Part shown: one piece after another, positions 11,195 to 36,334 of the stretch
Numbering within the stretch: position 1 is the first letter of the stretch
Layout of the letters: each line of letters opens with the position of its first letter
Source of the DNA: a virus
Length of the DNA: 38,356 bases
Strand: one strand, 5' to 3'
IMG/VR virus record: IMGVR_UViG_3300032284_000365
Coordinates: 1 to 38,356 of that record
Made by a program: the position numbers and the translations under genes
The notes under the pieces: generated by a model
The model's input: only the letters and a program-made list of their open reading frames with translations
Databases searched by the model: none
What the model was told of the DNA's origin: nothing

Positions 11195-12292
11195 ATGAAA
11201 CATAAACCAAAAATACTAATCGTACACAAAGACCCAAGAGCAAATAATCCTAATGCATGTCACGCCGGATTAGGAGTAACAGCAAACAACGAAGCCAAGG
11301 TATTAAAGAAACACGGTATAGACGCAGAAGCAACAGTAGTAGTCGATGGATACGATTTGAAACATGGATTACATATTGATAAGTGGGGCAAGGTGAGTCA
11401 CGTGGTGATGTGTGCTCCCTTTTTCGATACTCCATTTTTAACTAAGTTGTGTTTATGTTTTCCTGAAATCCAATTCTCTGTATGTTTCCATTCTAATGCA
11501 GGATTCCTTGGAGTGGATAAGTGGGCGATGGGAATTCTAGGAGAACAGATTGAACGACAAAGGGTTCTTAAGAACTTCAAAGTTACTACTAATAGTAAGA
11601 AGTTTTCCAAGGTAGTCGAACAATCGTTTGGTGTTTCCGTACAAACTCTTCCTAATTTATATTGGTTAGAGTCTGATGAATTATATATCAGACCAACCAA
11701 ACAAGAACGTAAGAAGGGAGAAGTGTTAAAGGTAGGAACGTTCTGCGCTATTCGTACTCTGAAGAACATTCCTACAGCTGCATTTGCCGCTGCTATTCTT
11801 TCTAGAAAGTTAGACGTTCCGGTTGAGTTTGTTATTATGAAGGGTAGAGAAGAAGACCCTGCCGCAGAAAAGATCATCGAAGGAATCAAGAGATTATATT
11901 GTCACCTTCCTAATGTCAAATTGGTAGAAGAGCCATGGAGAGAGTGGGAACAGTTCAAGATGGAAGTTGTCCACAAAATGGACATTCTACTACAACCTTC
12001 GTTTACTGAAAGTTTCAACAACGTAACCGCCGATGGAATATCGGTTGGTGTTGCTTCTGTGGTAGGAGAAGCAATTGACTGGGTTCCTATGGAATGGACC
12101 GCAAACGTAGACGACGCGAATGATATGGCAGAAGTTGCTATCAGACTGTTGGAAGATAAACAGGCTCCATTTAATGGATTCTTATCCCTAGTAGATCACA
12201 ATAAAGATGCAATTGATTGGTGGAAACTATGGATGCACAATAATTCTATCTTTGGTAAATTGATTAAAATGTGGGAAAAGGGTTGGAAATAA
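11195..12292 (+). CDS. Glycosyltransferase, GT-B fold (GT4-like)
   Basis: The 365-residue protein has two Rossmann-like halves. The N-terminal part begins KILIVHKDP. The C-terminal part starts KVGTFCAIRTLKN and contains a nucleotide-sugar region DILLQPSFTESFNNVTADGI followed by SVVGEAIDWVP, the equivalent of the GT4 E-x7-E loop. It transfers a sugar from a nucleotide donor to an unknown acceptor. Its neighbour is a sugar epimerase. A phage enzyme of this kind could glycosylate phage DNA, virion proteins or host surface glycans; the sequence does not decide. The permuted tmRNA begins within a few bases of its stop. Confidence 0.75.
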   Translation: MKHKPKILIVHKDPRANNPNACHAGLGVTANNEAKVLKKHGIDAEATVVVDGYDLKHGLHIDKWGKVSHVVMCAPFFDTPFLTKLCLCFPEIQFSVCFHSNAGFLGVDKWAMGILGEQIERQRVLKNFKVTTNSKKFSKVVEQSFGVSVQTLPNLYWLESDELYIRPTKQERKKGEVLKVGTFCAIRTLKNIPTAAFAAAILSRKLDVPVEFVIMKGREEDPAAEKIIEGIKRLYCHLPNVKLVEEPWREWEQFKMEVVHKMDILLQPSFTESFNNVTADGISVGVASVVGEAIDWVPMEWTANVDDANDMAEVAIRLLEDKQAPFNGFLSLVDHNKDAIDWWKLWMHNNSIFGKLIKMWEKGWK

Positions 12293-12295
12293 ATA
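12288..12295 (+). promoter_or_regulatory. Possible late promoter before the tmRNA
   Basis: AATAAATA overlaps the end of the glycosyltransferase gene. Its start point would fall near 12301-12306, just before the acceptor piece of the tmRNA. Confidence 0.4.
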
Positions 12296-12302
12296 GAGAC
12301 TG

Positions 12303-12544
12303 ATAGGTATTGATCTGGATTGAATGTATTTCGGACAGGGGTTCGACTCCCCTCACCTCCACCATAAACTTACGGGGGTGTCATGGTTTCGACGGGATAA
12401 GCTAGAGAAGGGGAATCTATCTGGTAGACGACTACCATAACAGCGTAAACAATAACTGTCACAGCAAAAGCTAAGACAATGTCCGCTGCTGCATAGCAGC
12501 GACTGGGTTGGCAACTGACCTCGAAACAGAATAGTTGAACTAGA
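12303..12544 (+). ncRNA. ssrA: Circularly permuted two-piece tmRNA
   Basis: The acceptor half comes first: a T-arm AGGGG-TTCGACT-CCCCT (12337-12353), acceptor strand CACCTCC (12354-12360) and ACCA (12361-12364). After a 9-nt spacer the coding half begins: GGGGGTG (12374-12380) pairs all seven bases with CACCTCC. It is followed by GGTTTCGACGGG, the tmRNA D-arm signature. GGGATA (12394-12399) and CTAGA (12402-12406) pair back to TATTTC (12327-12332) and TCTGG (12314-12318) as helix P2. The tag frame ends AKAKTMSAAA-stop (12464-12496). The resume codon is probably GCA 12464 or ACA 12461. The stop lies in a hairpin CGCTGCT/AGCAGCG, as expected for helix P5. tmRNA rescues stalled ribosomes with SmpB. 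Outer ends are approximate. Confidence 0.9.
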
Positions 12545-12579
12545 GCCTCCAATACCTAAATAGGGTTGGAGGCTTTTTT
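12545..12579 (+). terminator. Rho-independent terminator of the tmRNA
   Basis: An 8-bp stem GCCTCCAA/TTGGAGGC is followed by TTTTTT. It closes the tmRNA unit 4 nt before the ATG of the Clp-like gene. Confidence 0.9.
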
Positions 12580-12583
12580 ACTT

Positions 12584-13609
12584 ATGATCCTTGATCTCAC
12601 TGACTTGAACGGCGAAGCCAAACGACTATCCGAATACCTGAAATCTCGGATTATATCACAACACGAAGCAATAGACAGTGTTTGTGTTGGTGCACAAAAA
12701 TACTTTGTTGGTCTTAACGAAATTAAAAAACCTCTTGGGACGTTTCTTTTTGCTGGTCCCACAGGAACAGGTAAGACCAAAGTAGTACAGGATATCGGTA
12801 AGTTCTTTGACATAGAACCAGTCGTTATTAACTGTGGAGAAATGCAGCAACATCACGAACTGTCTAAGTTACTAGGTGCCCCTCCTGGATTTATTGGTCA
12901 CGGTGAAACAAAACCTCTTATCTCCAAAGAAAGAATTGAAAATACGAACGGTAGACCAAACGTCGTTCTCTTCGATGAGATTGAAAAGGCTTCTTCTGCA
13001 TTATTCAATTTGTTGCTGGGCATTTTGGATAACGGGTATGTAACAACCAACCACAATGTTAATGTGTATTTCAATAATTGTTTCATCTTCATGACCTGCA
13101 ACATTGGCATAGAGAAGCTAGAACAAGAGAACAAGAACATTGGGTTTTCTAAGAAAGAATTGAGTAAAGAGAATAAAGAGGAGATCACGTTCAAAGAGAT
13201 CAAGAAAGTGTTTCGGCCTGAGTTCATTAATCGCATTGAAAAGATTGTTGTATTCGAGGCTCTTACTAAACAGAACGTAGAGGATATTTTTGAGCTAGAG
13301 CTATCTGATATCCAGGATAGATTGAGCGATTGTGAGATGAAGAAAGTGTTCCTGTACATAGATCCATCAGCCAAACAGAAAATAGTTGATATGGGCTACT
13401 CTGCTGAATACGGAGCCAGAAACCTTAAACGCATTATGGAAAAGGAGATTGTGTGTCCTGTCTCTAATGCATTGTCTCTAGAACAGGTCGAAGATGGTGA
13501 TTCTATTTTGGTGGAATTTGTAGAAGATGCGTTCCTGTTCCGGAAACAGCAGTATACTAGGAAGAAAGGATCCTCGACCTTTGTTATGATGGATAAGTTA
13601 TTACGCTAA
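12584..13609 (+). CDS. Single-ring ClpA-like AAA+ unfoldase
   Basis: The 341-residue protein corresponds to the second AAA+ module (D2) of ClpA/ClpC, without the N-domain and D1. Motifs in order: Walker A GPTGTGKT (58-65), pore loop GAPPGFIGH (98-106), Walker B VVLFDE (127-132), sensor 1 N173 (MTCN), arginine finger R217 (FINRIE) and sensor 2 GAR (277-279). Residues 186-188 are IGF, placed where ClpA has its IGL ClpP-docking loop; ClpB disaggregases lack this. It is therefore predicted to unfold substrates and feed host ClpP. The ATG at 12584 was chosen because an upstream TTG lies inside the terminator. It lies directly after the tmRNA, whose tag ends in AAA, so it may degrade tagged proteins. 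That link is inference. Confidence 0.85.
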   Translation: MILDLTDLNGEAKRLSEYLKSRIISQHEAIDSVCVGAQKYFVGLNEIKKPLGTFLFAGPTGTGKTKVVQDIGKFFDIEPVVINCGEMQQHHELSKLLGAPPGFIGHGETKPLISKERIENTNGRPNVVLFDEIEKASSALFNLLLGILDNGYVTTNHNVNVYFNNCFIFMTCNIGIEKLEQENKNIGFSKKELSKENKEEITFKEIKKVFRPEFINRIEKIVVFEALTKQNVEDIFELELSDIQDRLSDCEMKKVFLYIDPSAKQKIVDMGYSAEYGARNLKRIMEKEIVCPVSNALSLEQVEDGDSILVEFVEDAFLFRKQQYTRKKGSSTFVMMDKLLR

Positions 13610-13625
13610 ATACAATAGAGGAATT

Positions 13626-13874
13626 ATGCTATCTTTCAATGATTACATCACAGAGCAAAGAGAATCGAAACAGTTAGACGATAAAATGTCTTCTTTAGGA
13701 TATGGACGACCCAAGGTAGGGACAGAAGGACATATCACGTTTACCAATAGAGAGGACCCAAACGATCAGTTTCTCGTAGATGTTCCTGGTAAAGAATGGC
13801 ATCATATGACAAAGGGAGTCGTTGATCAGAAAGGCTCAATGACCGACGACTCCCTAGACAAATACGTTAGTTAA
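13626..13874 (+). CDS. Small protein with capsid-targeting-like leader
   Basis: An 82-residue protein that begins MLSFNDYITE. This matches T4 capsid-targeting propeptides (type MKTYQEFIAE), with an I-T-E site for the gp21 prohead protease. The remaining 72 residues are charged and hydrophilic, like T4 internal proteins, and show no known motif. The AGAGGAATT before the ATG is a good ribosome-binding site. It ends convergently, overlapping the end of gene 46 by 8 bp. It may be packaged in the head and injected; this is inference from the leader. Confidence 0.6.
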   Translation: MLSFNDYITEQRESKQLDDKMSSLGYGRPKVGTEGHITFTNREDPNDQFLVDVPGKEWHHMTKGVVDQKGSMTDDSLDKYVS

Positions 13875-23458: not shown

Positions 23459-23547
23459 TGGTGGGTGCCTCGTGATTCGAACACGAAACGTCTCAGGGAC
23501 GAACAGTTTTACAGACTGCCGCAGCTAACCGTAGCTGCCTGACACCC
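23459..23547 (-). tRNA. tRNA-Tyr(GTA)
   Basis: Acceptor GGGTGTC/GGCACCC, D-stem GCAG/CTGC, anticodon loop CTGTAAA (GTA), a long variable arm (CGTC/GACG) as in bacterial tRNA-Tyr, T-arm TCGTG/CACGA and encoded CCA. Confidence 0.95.
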
Positions 23548-23552
23548 AAACT

Positions 23553-23627
23553 TGGCACCGCCGTCAAGACTCGAACTTGAAATATCTGAGTCAAAGTCAG
23601 ATGTGTTGCCAATTACACCACAGCGGT
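23553..23627 (-). tRNA. tRNA-Gln(TTG)
   Basis: Acceptor ACCGCTG/CGGCGGT, anticodon stem TCTGA/TCAGA with loop CTTTGAC (TTG), T-arm TCAAG/CTTGA, discriminator G and encoded CCA. Confidence 0.92.
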
Positions 23628-23675
23628 ACATATATATTTATCAGGGGCAAGTGCCTAGCTGTCGCCGAATAGCCT

Positions 23676-23813
23676 TCGCTTGATTGTGGGATTCGAACCC
23701 ACTCCTCCCGGTCTCACCGGTAGCTCCTCCACGAGCTCATTTCTGCTACTGCTTCTATTCTATCAACCCACTTGCAATCTGCCCGTCGACTGGCAGTGTT
23801 TTTATCGGATTGC
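23676..23813 (-). other. Degenerate tRNA-like element and adjoining hairpin
   Basis: A canonical T-arm (GTGGG-TTCGAAT-CCCAC, 23686-23702) is followed by AATCAAG but no CCA. A long-variable-arm-like hairpin CCGGT/ACCGG and an anticodon-like hairpin (AGCT/AGCT) precede it, and only five of seven acceptor pairs can form. Next to it, 23774-23813 folds as GCAATC/GATTGC with an inner CTGCC/GGCAG. It looks like a decayed class II (Ser/Leu-type) tRNA. No reading frame occupies 23628-23834. Confidence 0.4.
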
Positions 23814-23834
23814 CTAAACTACCCTGTATACAAT

Positions 23835-23909
23835 TGGCTCTCCGAGGTCGATTCGAACGACCAACCATTGCTTTATCAGTGCAAGACTCTACCGTTGAGT
23901 TATCGGAGA
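23835..23909 (-). tRNA. tRNA with Ile anticodon (GAT), duplicate of tRNA-Asn
   Basis: Acceptor TCTCCGA/TCGGAGA, D-stem ACTC/GAGT, loop CTGATAA (GAT), T-arm GGTCG/CGACC, discriminator G and CCA. It differs from the neighbouring tRNA-Asn at only two positions: anticodon GTT to GAT, and one anticodon-stem base, which leaves an A-A mismatch. The G discriminator is Asn-like, not Ile-like (A). Charging identity is doubtful. Confidence 0.85.
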
Positions 23910-23918
23910 ATGAAACTT

Positions 23919-23993
23919 TGGCTCTCCGAGGTCGATTCGAACGACCAACCATTGCATTAACAGTGCAAGACTCTACCGTTGAGTTATCGGAGA
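23919..23993 (-). tRNA. tRNA-Asn(GTT)
   Basis: Acceptor TCTCCGA/TCGGAGA, anticodon stem TTGCA/TGCAA with loop CTGTTAA (GTT), discriminator G and encoded CCA. It is the intact member of an 84-nt tandem duplication with 23835-23909. Confidence 0.94.
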
Positions 23994-24001
23994 ATGAAAC
24001 T

Positions 24002-24044
24002 TGGTAAGGATGGCGGGGATCGAACCCGCGATGACCACATCCTC
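24002..24044 (-). pseudogene. tRNA minihelix: acceptor and T-arm only
   Basis: T-arm GCGGG-TTCGATC-CCCGC and acceptor CATCCTT plus ACCA are intact. The preceding seven bases GAGGATG can pair with the acceptor strand, and only 8 nt (TGGTCATC) separate them from the T-arm. The D and anticodon arms are missing and there is no room for them before tRNA-Lys at 24058. It may be a deletion remnant or a deliberately short tRNA-like RNA. Confidence 0.6.
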
Positions 24045-24057
24045 ACATTTAAACTTT

Positions 24058-24133
24058 TGGTGATCCCGATGGGAATCGAACCCATGACGTTCGCATTAAG
24101 AGTGCGATGCTCTGCCAACTGAGCTACGAGATC
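24058..24133 (-). tRNA. tRNA-Lys(CTT)
   Basis: Acceptor GATCTCG/CGGGATC, D-arm AGCTCAGTTGGCAGAGC, anticodon stem TCGCA/TGCGA with loop CTCTTAA (CTT), T-arm CATGG/CCATC-type and encoded CCA. Confidence 0.94.
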
Positions 24134-24136
24134 AAA

Positions 24137-24213
24137 TGGTGTCCCCGGCTGGGATCGAACCAGCGACAATTCGCTTAGAAGGCGAATCCTCTATCCAACT
24201 GAGGTACAGGGAC
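24137..24213 (-). tRNA. tRNA-Arg(TCT)
   Basis: Acceptor GTCCCTG/CGGGGAC, anticodon stem TTCGC/GCGAA with loop CTTCTAA (TCT, reads AGA), T-arm GCTGG/CCAGC and encoded CCA. Confidence 0.95.
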
Positions 24214-24221
24214 ATTAAATT

Positions 24222-24295
24222 TGGTGGAGACGGAGAGAATCGAACTCTCAAGTGTGCCGTGCAAAGGCACCAGTTTCCCGTTAGCTTACGTCCCC
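24222..24295 (-). tRNA. tRNA-Ala(TGC)
   Basis: Acceptor GGGGACG/CGTCTCC includes the G3:U70 pair that defines Ala identity. The anticodon stem is GTGCC/GGCAC with loop TTTGCAC (TGC), the T-arm GAGAG/CTCTC, and CCA is encoded. Its first 15 nt are also the last codons and stop of the gene at 24281-24661. Confidence 0.93.
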
Positions 24296-26530: not shown

Positions 26531-27505
26531 ATGAATGAGACGAAAGCAAAACTGATCGCTGAGCTGAGCCAGAACTTCGGGGATAAGGTTTCCCGCGCTG
26601 ACCTAATGGAAACTGCCGCTAAGTATGGCATCAATCCTGGGTTTCTGACTGTGAACAAAATCGGTCGTGGTCTGTATGATATTTCGCAGTTCACTTCTGG
26701 TTCGACTTCTACGGTTTCTGCTCCGGTTGTTTCGGATGAAGAAATCCTGAACTCTCAGCGTCGGCGCTTCCGTACCCTTACTCGCATGACCGATGGTGTC
26801 ATCGCCGGACAGGTTCGCTCGGTTATCGTTTCGGGTCCTGCTGGTATCGGTAAGACCTATACGATCGAAGGTATGCTTGAGTCGGCCGCCAGCGGAGAAT
26901 CCATTACTTATACTCCTGTTCGCGGCTTCATCAAAGCGACTGGCCTGTATAAGCTGATGTGGGAAAATCGTGAAGAAAATCAGGTGATTCTGCTCGACGA
27001 TTGCGACTCTGCTTTTCAGGACGAAGTTTCGTTGAACTTGCTGAAGGCTGCGCTCGATACTTCTAAGAAACGTGTTCTGTCTTGGCGATCGGAAAAGAAT
27101 TTCTCTGACGACGCTGGCGAAAACGTTCCTAATGAATTCGAGTACAAGGGTTCTATCGTCTTCATCACTAACTTGAACTTTGAGCAGATGATTGCTTCTG
27201 GCAATAAACTAGCTCCCCACATGTCTGCTTTGATCTCTCGCTCGTTCTACATTGATCTTAACATGAACGCTCGCGAGTGCATGTTGCGAATCAAGGACGT
27301 TCTTGCTTCGACTGATATGGCGTATACGCTTGGTCTTAACAAGAAGCAGTCGGAACAGTTGGTTAATTATGTCGAGAGCAACTTCTCTCGTATGCGCGAG
27401 TTGTCTCTTCGTATGGTGGTGAAGTTGGCCAAGGTTATGGCGTTCACTTCTGATGTTGAAGACTTCATGGATGTTGCTGAAGTCACCTGCTTGAAGACTC
27501 GGTAA
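26531..27505 (+). CDS. AAA+ ATPase with N-terminal RGxYxI domain
   Basis: The 324-residue protein has an N-terminal domain of about 52 residues (MNETKAKLIAELSQNFG to GRGLYDIS) related to the start of the CobS-like protein at 223. A short Ser/Thr-rich linker follows, then an AAA+ core: Walker A GPAGIGKTYT (about 99-108), Walker B VILLDDCDS and a sensor IVFITNLNF. It lacks the extended MoxR inserts and could be a regulator, remodeller or host-interaction ATPase. It is read from a leaderless early transcript. Small genes follow in the same unit. Confidence 0.75.
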   Translation: MNETKAKLIAELSQNFGDKVSRADLMETAAKYGINPGFLTVNKIGRGLYDISQFTSGSTSTVSAPVVSDEEILNSQRRRFRTLTRMTDGVIAGQVRSVIVSGPAGIGKTYTIEGMLESAASGESITYTPVRGFIKATGLYKLMWENREENQVILLDDCDSAFQDEVSLNLLKAALDTSKKRVLSWRSEKNFSDDAGENVPNEFEYKGSIVFITNLNFEQMIASGNKLAPHMSALISRSFYIDLNMNARECMLRIKDVLASTDMAYTLGLNKKQSEQLVNYVESNFSRMRELSLRMVVKLAKVMAFTSDVEDFMDVAEVTCLKTR

Positions 27506-36326: not shown

Positions 36327-36334
36327 TATTTATA
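36327..36334 (-). promoter_or_regulatory. Late promoter of gene 18, TATAAATA
   Basis: Exact TATAAATA on the minus strand, 50 nt before the gp18 ATG, following the end of gene 17. Confidence 0.78.

Follow-up and report, generated by a model that had tools for sequence, protein, structure and literature searches.

A ClpX ring lacking the N domain suffices, together with ClpP, to degrade ssrA-tagged proteins. On GFP, the five residues YALAA are a sufficient degron and LAA is insufficient (PMC7652416), so that a bare ring encoded beside a tag gene would be a sensible minimal design. Several phage components of this kind are already known: permuted two-piece tmRNA in the marine phages Melnitz, Mosig and S-CAM1 (PMC9004378), tmRNA together with SmpB in huge phages (PMC7162821, in whose main text Clp is not mentioned) and double-ring phage ClpA. 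We found no report of a pairing of phage tmRNA with a one-ring Clp, or of a one-ring Clp family, in the open-licence literature. Here we describe such a pair in a fragment of 38,356 bases that makes up IMG/VR virus record IMGVR_UViG_3300032284_000365 (the window), in which both genes are intact (Table 1). Judged by its gene content, the source is a T4-like myophage, with a T4-type tail sheath, SbcC/SbcD, a single-strand-binding protein, a helicase and a portal ~50% identical to those of Synechococcus cyanophages. In gene form and type of carrier the tmRNA resembles those of Melnitz, Mosig and S-CAM1, which, unlike this one, have not been reported with a Clp gene. Elsewhere the window holds seven clustered tRNA genes (Tyr, Gln, Ile, Asn, Lys, Arg and Ala; 23459-24295, minus strand) and, amid minus-strand genes near the capsid gene, a single plus-strand ORF (26531-27505) with a weak AAA_16/nSTAND3 match, possibly an accessory or defence-type NTPase.

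Table 1. Features of the tmRNA-clp locus (positions in the window)
Feature	Position	Strand	Basis
AATAAATA, resembling a late promoter, directly before the tmRNA 5' end	12288..12295	+	T4 late consensus TATAAATA
tmRNA 3' half, encoded first (H2 strand, T arm, acceptor CACCUCC-ACCA)	12302..12364	+	RF04321, RF01850, ARAGORN
9-nt intervening segment, with the encoded CCA before it and the acceptor strand GGGGGUG after it	12365..12373	+	Position
tmRNA 5' half (acceptor GGGGGUG, D-like region, H2 strand, mRNA-like part)	12374..12543	+	Rfam
Tag frame VTAKAKTMSAAA-UAG	12458..12496	+	ARAGORN; alignment with relatives' tags
Intrinsic terminator (hairpin 12544-12574, 9-bp stem, then T6)	12544..12579	+	Sequence, fold
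One-ring Clp/Hsp100 unfoldase, 341 aa, equivalent to ClpA/ClpC D2	12584..13609	+	Pfam, PHROGs, AlphaFold2, Foldseek
Walker A, residues 57-66, AGPTGTGKTK	12752..12781	+	Motif alignment
Pore-1 loop, residues 99-107, APPGFIGHG (GFIG)	12878..12904	+	Motif alignment
Walker B, residues 126-135, NVVLFDEIEK	12959..12988	+	Motif alignment
IGF, residues 186-188, where the model is of low confidence (flexible); putative ClpP-docking loop	13139..13147	+	Alignment
Arginine-finger segment, residues 210-219, FRPEFINRIE	13211..13240	+	Motif alignment

The tmRNA gene (12302-12579, plus strand) is of the circularly permuted, two-piece kind. The first-pass annotation had placed a tmRNA beside the clp gene, correctly, and had missed the permutation, by which the CCA-bearing 3' half precedes the 5' half. 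The Rfam model tmRNA_permuted (RF04321) matched 12302-12496/12580 on the plus strand with 111.5 bits against a curated cut-off of 47 (E 3.8e-21), RF01850 matched the same gene with 95.3 bits, and ARAGORN called it a tmRNA* (permuted) with the tag VTAKAKTMSAAA. Its predicted fold is more stable than those of shuffled sequences (z -3.1; 1 of 200 shuffles as good), and we take the gene as real. The 9-nt segment between the halves would be expected to be cut out on processing into two pieces.

Comparison of five phage tmRNAs revealed covariation in acceptor pairs 4-6, T pairs 1, 2, 4 and 5, and H2 pairs 3 and 5, with both sides changing and pairing kept throughout. G3:U70 is invariant in all five, and the window tmRNA joins this Ala-type acceptor to an open tag frame. 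The full tag would read (A)VTAKAKTMSAAA, the leading alanine being tRNA-borne. Tags of the relatives are ANTNVLVMSAAA (L034), ANTNVLAMSAAA (L118) and ADTKVFAMAA (L117); the ending MSAAA is shared by three of the four paired lineages, the window and two relatives, and the fourth ends in AMAA. We considered that the tmRNA might have decayed, or serve as a decoy, and so disturb the working of the host tmRNA, with clp unrelated to it. Such interference has a precedent, as the phage tmRNA of DS6A, which has no CDS, inhibits the host tmRNA (as cited in PMC11915505), and the resume codon of the window is GUC (Val) where the relatives have GCA or GCC, L034 and L117 have unusual T-loops, and the L115 contig has a tmRNA 3'-half remnant beside a homing-endonuclease-like ORF. 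Against these stand the intact tag frame, the compensatory stem changes, G3:U70 and the CCA, and we regard a decoy as highly unlikely.

The T-loops in question, GGCGGAA (L034:4680-4708) and GG(G)CAGTT(C) (L117:5170-5195), depart from TTCGANT, and the T stem is intact in both. In contig IMGVR_UViG_3300042309_000358 (L196:4679-5464), a tmRNA 3'-half remnant that ends after the T arm is followed by an ORF of HNH-like homing-endonuclease type (HIVPKHMGGTNESSNLIKL), for which Pfam gave no match, and then by a second, complete permuted tmRNA, an arrangement that looks like replacement of a tmRNA in place. T4-type RNA ligase, another translation-repair gene, is encoded near the tmRNA of relatives at L203:1008-2144 (by Pfam), and at L202:9934-11043 and L204:7428-8525 (by similarity).

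Upstream of the gene, the motif TAAATA ends 5-6 nt before the first tmRNA helix in the window and in L034, L117, L118 and L197. Within the window it occurs in the 60 nt upstream of 13 of 42 ORFs, where ~1 would be expected. A scan for sigma-70 promoters did no better than on shuffled sequence. TAAATA and the late-like motifs are putative promoters. TAAATA also precedes the tmRNA, clp and the ORF at 13626, and the T4 late consensus TATAAATA itself occurs on the minus strand at 36334, 31069, 29635 and 22033, upstream of the tail sheath gene, capsid-region genes and others. Between tmRNA and clp, the loop of the terminator contains CCTAAATA at 12555-12562, and its 3' arm contains GGAGG at 12568-12572, which probably serves clp as its ribosome-binding site. 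The loop also places TAAATA 5 nt before GGAGG, with AATAAATA at the matching place in L034; a late transcript initiated in the loop would bypass the hairpin. A consensus terminator scan missed this element because its loop limit was 8. The T-run ends at 12579 and the clp ATG lies at 12584, leaving 4 nt between them and not the 5 nt first counted.

The clp product was first described as a single ring resembling ClpA D2, and the profile searches bear this out. Pfam recognizes AAA_2 (117.8 bits) and ClpB_D2-small (62.4 bits), and the match to phrog_4871, 'ATP-dependent protease', is confined to positions 457-758 of the 764 in the profile, which correspond to D2 only. Walker A and B, sensors 1 and 2, the arginine finger and the D2-small domain of the ClpA/ClpC module are all present. 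The AlphaFold2 monomer model has a mean pLDDT of 85.6 and a pTM of 0.82, with low confidence near the IGF loop, in one other loop and in the tail. Its best Foldseek matches are ClpC chains from ClpC-ClpP complexes (E 6.5e-31), and a profile built from the one-ring proteins ranks ClpC first in the PDB (E 2.4e-96). The first ring and the N domain of ClpA/ClpC are absent from the 341 residues and there is no D1 upstream; with no middle domain either, and a clade of its own, the protein differs from ClpC and ClpA, including the ClpA-like proteins of jumbo phages (phrog_4871), which it resembles in D2 sequence, fold and docking loop. The NCBIfam ClpA model gives 219 bits against a cut-off of 993. 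With ClpX it shares the single AAA+ ring, the IGF loop and an expected use with ClpP and tmRNA tags, but it is a D2 of ClpA/ClpC type (ClpX models give 31-45 bits; TIGR00382, 31 bits against a cut-off of 371) and has no N-terminal zinc-binding domain. The mitochondrial CLPB/Skd3 is similarly a one-ring protein derived from a ClpB/Hsp100 D2, and it carries an ankyrin domain and is not known to act with ClpP.

The window's Clp protein alone as query retrieved no relative in a scan of viral contigs, and the one-ring homologues were found by alignment-driven scans of IMG/VR. These viral relatives have ~310-450 aa. A maximum-likelihood tree built from 111 D2 domains joins at least 15 one-ring viral rows and one short bacterial MAG contig in a single clade (support 100/99), separate from double-ring phage ClpA/C and from most sampled bacterial Clps, in which L034 is sister to the window. 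Almost every one-ring viral Clp in the tree belongs to it; three other shorter viral proteins fall elsewhere. The ATPase motifs are intact throughout the clade, and pore-1, GFIG in the window, is mostly GY(L/I)G in relatives. In structure libraries, members appear only as single, unnamed 'AAA domain containing protein' entries. The tree bears on whether the ORF is what is left of a double-ring gene into which the tmRNA cut, as might be thought from the annotated phage homologues fetched, all 13 of which are double rings of 722-778 aa. No first-ring remnant lies upstream, and a clade of one-ring relatives with intact motifs largely refutes a truncated gene, leaving this explanation a very slight probability.

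The first-pass annotation placed IGF where ClpA and ClpX have their docking loops, and in alignment it does coincide with the IGF/IGL of phage ClpA homologues and the GF of solved ClpC. It fits the (I/L/V)G(F/L) pattern of unfoldases that partner ClpP. Loss of the loop in close relatives would have spoken against the proposal; the four paired lineages have IGF, LGF or LGY, and among the matches listed, xGF is found in 112 of 123 viral D2s, whereas the position is empty, as in ClpB, in 38 of 79 bacterial homologues. These figures weigh against the protein being an unfoldase or disaggregase that serves phage assembly or heat protection without ClpP. ClpB and ClpA models score it equally high, and many phage Clp genes adjoin structural genes. 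On the other hand, the clade keeps the xGF loop that ClpB-type D2s lack, both family profile and fold rank ClpC first, and ClpB has two rings and a coiled-coil middle domain where this protein has one ring. A ClpP-independent role therefore appears unlikely to us.

Neither ClpP nor SmpB was found in the 38-kb window fragment. The contig L116, of the one-ring group, codes for a ClpP-like protein of 196 aa in which the serine, histidine and aspartate motifs are all present, distinct from the T4-type prohead protease of the same contig. Its role is uncertain because phage prohead proteases include ClpP-like proteins (PMC5964084). The earlier proposal of rescue and degradation through host ClpP accordingly stands in part: the loop is kept and the genes are linked elsewhere, but many double-ring phages, and one relative with a one-ring Clp, have a ClpP gene of their own.

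Conservation of the gene pair was looked for in related phages. At least three further IMG/VR phage lineages, represented by L034, L117 and L118, combine a permuted tmRNA with a one-ring clp whose product is 38-45% identical to that of the window, and in these the tmRNA lies upstream of clp on the same strand at 83 to ~635 nt. The shortest gap, 83 nt, is that of L034, L115 and L116 (the same gene on three contigs); in L117 (~635 nt) and L118 (~602 nt) one cell-wall-hydrolase ORF intervenes. With the tmRNA DNA pattern alone as query, two more contigs of the L118 type with clp downstream, L198 and L199, were retrieved; as their clp and neighbours are identical to those of L118 at the protein level, they were rejected as independent cases. 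L197 has a related tmRNA but ends soon after it and is uninformative on linkage. The four-lineage arrangement may stem from one ancestor. Counting two tree branches as two events and placing gene pairs at random in contigs, the chance of same-strand upstream spacing below 700 nt is ~1% or less per event, a rough estimate and not a test. Flanking genes mostly differ between the window, which has a glycosyltransferase gene upstream, and its relatives: PhoH and exonuclease genes lie directly downstream in L117 and L118 and ~10 kb off in the window. SbcC is shared, downstream of clp on the other strand, by the window and L034; contigs gathered through SbcC neighbours had no clp.

The linkage is not general, since clp was not found in eight contigs with permuted tmRNA (by sequence-pattern scan), nor in S-CAM1. 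No tmRNA was detected with the one-ring clp of L120, L124, L129 and L136 (contigs of 38-111 kb), and L035 and L038 have both genes 309 and 19 kb apart. This scatter, and the hydrolase gene between the two in L117 and L118, would suit an arrangement in which Clp and ClpP act on other substrates, such as host or phage proteins marked by different signals, or recycle host protein, the tmRNA only rescues and leaves its products to host ClpXP, and the genes are neighbours by descent; the pairing may indeed be inherited gene order in one T4-like group. Yet the pair persists while most flanking genes differ, and the absence of an N-terminal adaptor-binding domain favours direct recognition of a tail. 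We hold separate functions to be possible but doubtful.

Conservation of the pair in related phages suggests a phage-borne tag-and-destroy pathway. We place just short of an even chance the reading that the locus is a unit for phage trans-translation and proteolysis, comprising a tmRNA tag, its own one-ring motor and ClpP. The two-piece tmRNA would probably be transcribed from the phage late-type promoter and, with host SmpB, EF-Tu and alanyl-tRNA synthetase, would free ribosomes stalled on broken messages, adding (A)VTAKAKTMSAAA to the unfinished proteins. From linkage and motif we infer that the Clp acts on the tag of its own tmRNA. Once expressed, it would form a one-ring hexamer, ClpX-like without an N domain and built as the second ring of ClpC/ClpA type, whose aromatic pore loop would seize the Ala-rich C-terminus; IGF would dock the ring on ClpP, supplied here by the host and in some relatives by the phage, and the tagged protein would be unfolded and fed in. 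An unfoldase encoded beside the tmRNA would turn existing guesses, ribosome rescue and host protein recycling, into a testable pathway in which an incomplete protein is tagged and then destroyed by the phage's own motor. A one-ring ClpC-type ring with a docking loop would also be a natural minimal ClpP partner for dissecting tag recognition.

Huge phages also carry ribosome-rescue genes, tmRNA and SmpB (PMC7162821), and, beyond what that main text mentions, such contigs here encode a ClpC-like unfoldase and ClpP as well. Among the matches listed, 80 huge-phage contigs carry a double-ring ClpC-like protein, and in 31 of them a standard tmRNA scored above the Rfam cut-off. Together with three permuted cases, 27 of 34 tmRNAs lie within 5.3 kb of clp, all 27 on the same strand. 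We rejected a huge-phage tmRNA-clp operon because opposite-strand genes intervene in the contigs examined and most cases belong to one clade. ClpP is encoded in eight tmRNA-bearing huge-phage contigs and in each of six jumbo/huge phages tested (isolates or assembled genomes), and SmpB in four tmRNA-bearing contigs and in LR756502. More tentatively, and with real doubt, we envisage that T4-like phages have evolved a private tmRNA (MSAAA tag) and a private one-ring Clp, of a previously unnamed viral family, that reads the tag and delivers to ClpP of host or phage, and that double-ring Clp, standard tmRNA, ClpP and SmpB are the huge-phage analogue. In two contigs (L208:6916-7845 and L207), SmpB lies ~100 to 900 nt from the phage tmRNA, with a ClpC-like gene in the same contig. 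In another (L205:3777-4181, minus strand), a 134-aa protein with UvrB/UvrC (UVR) motifs is encoded divergently from a double-ring clp; reminiscent of McsA, a ClpC partner, it could be a phage Clp adaptor.
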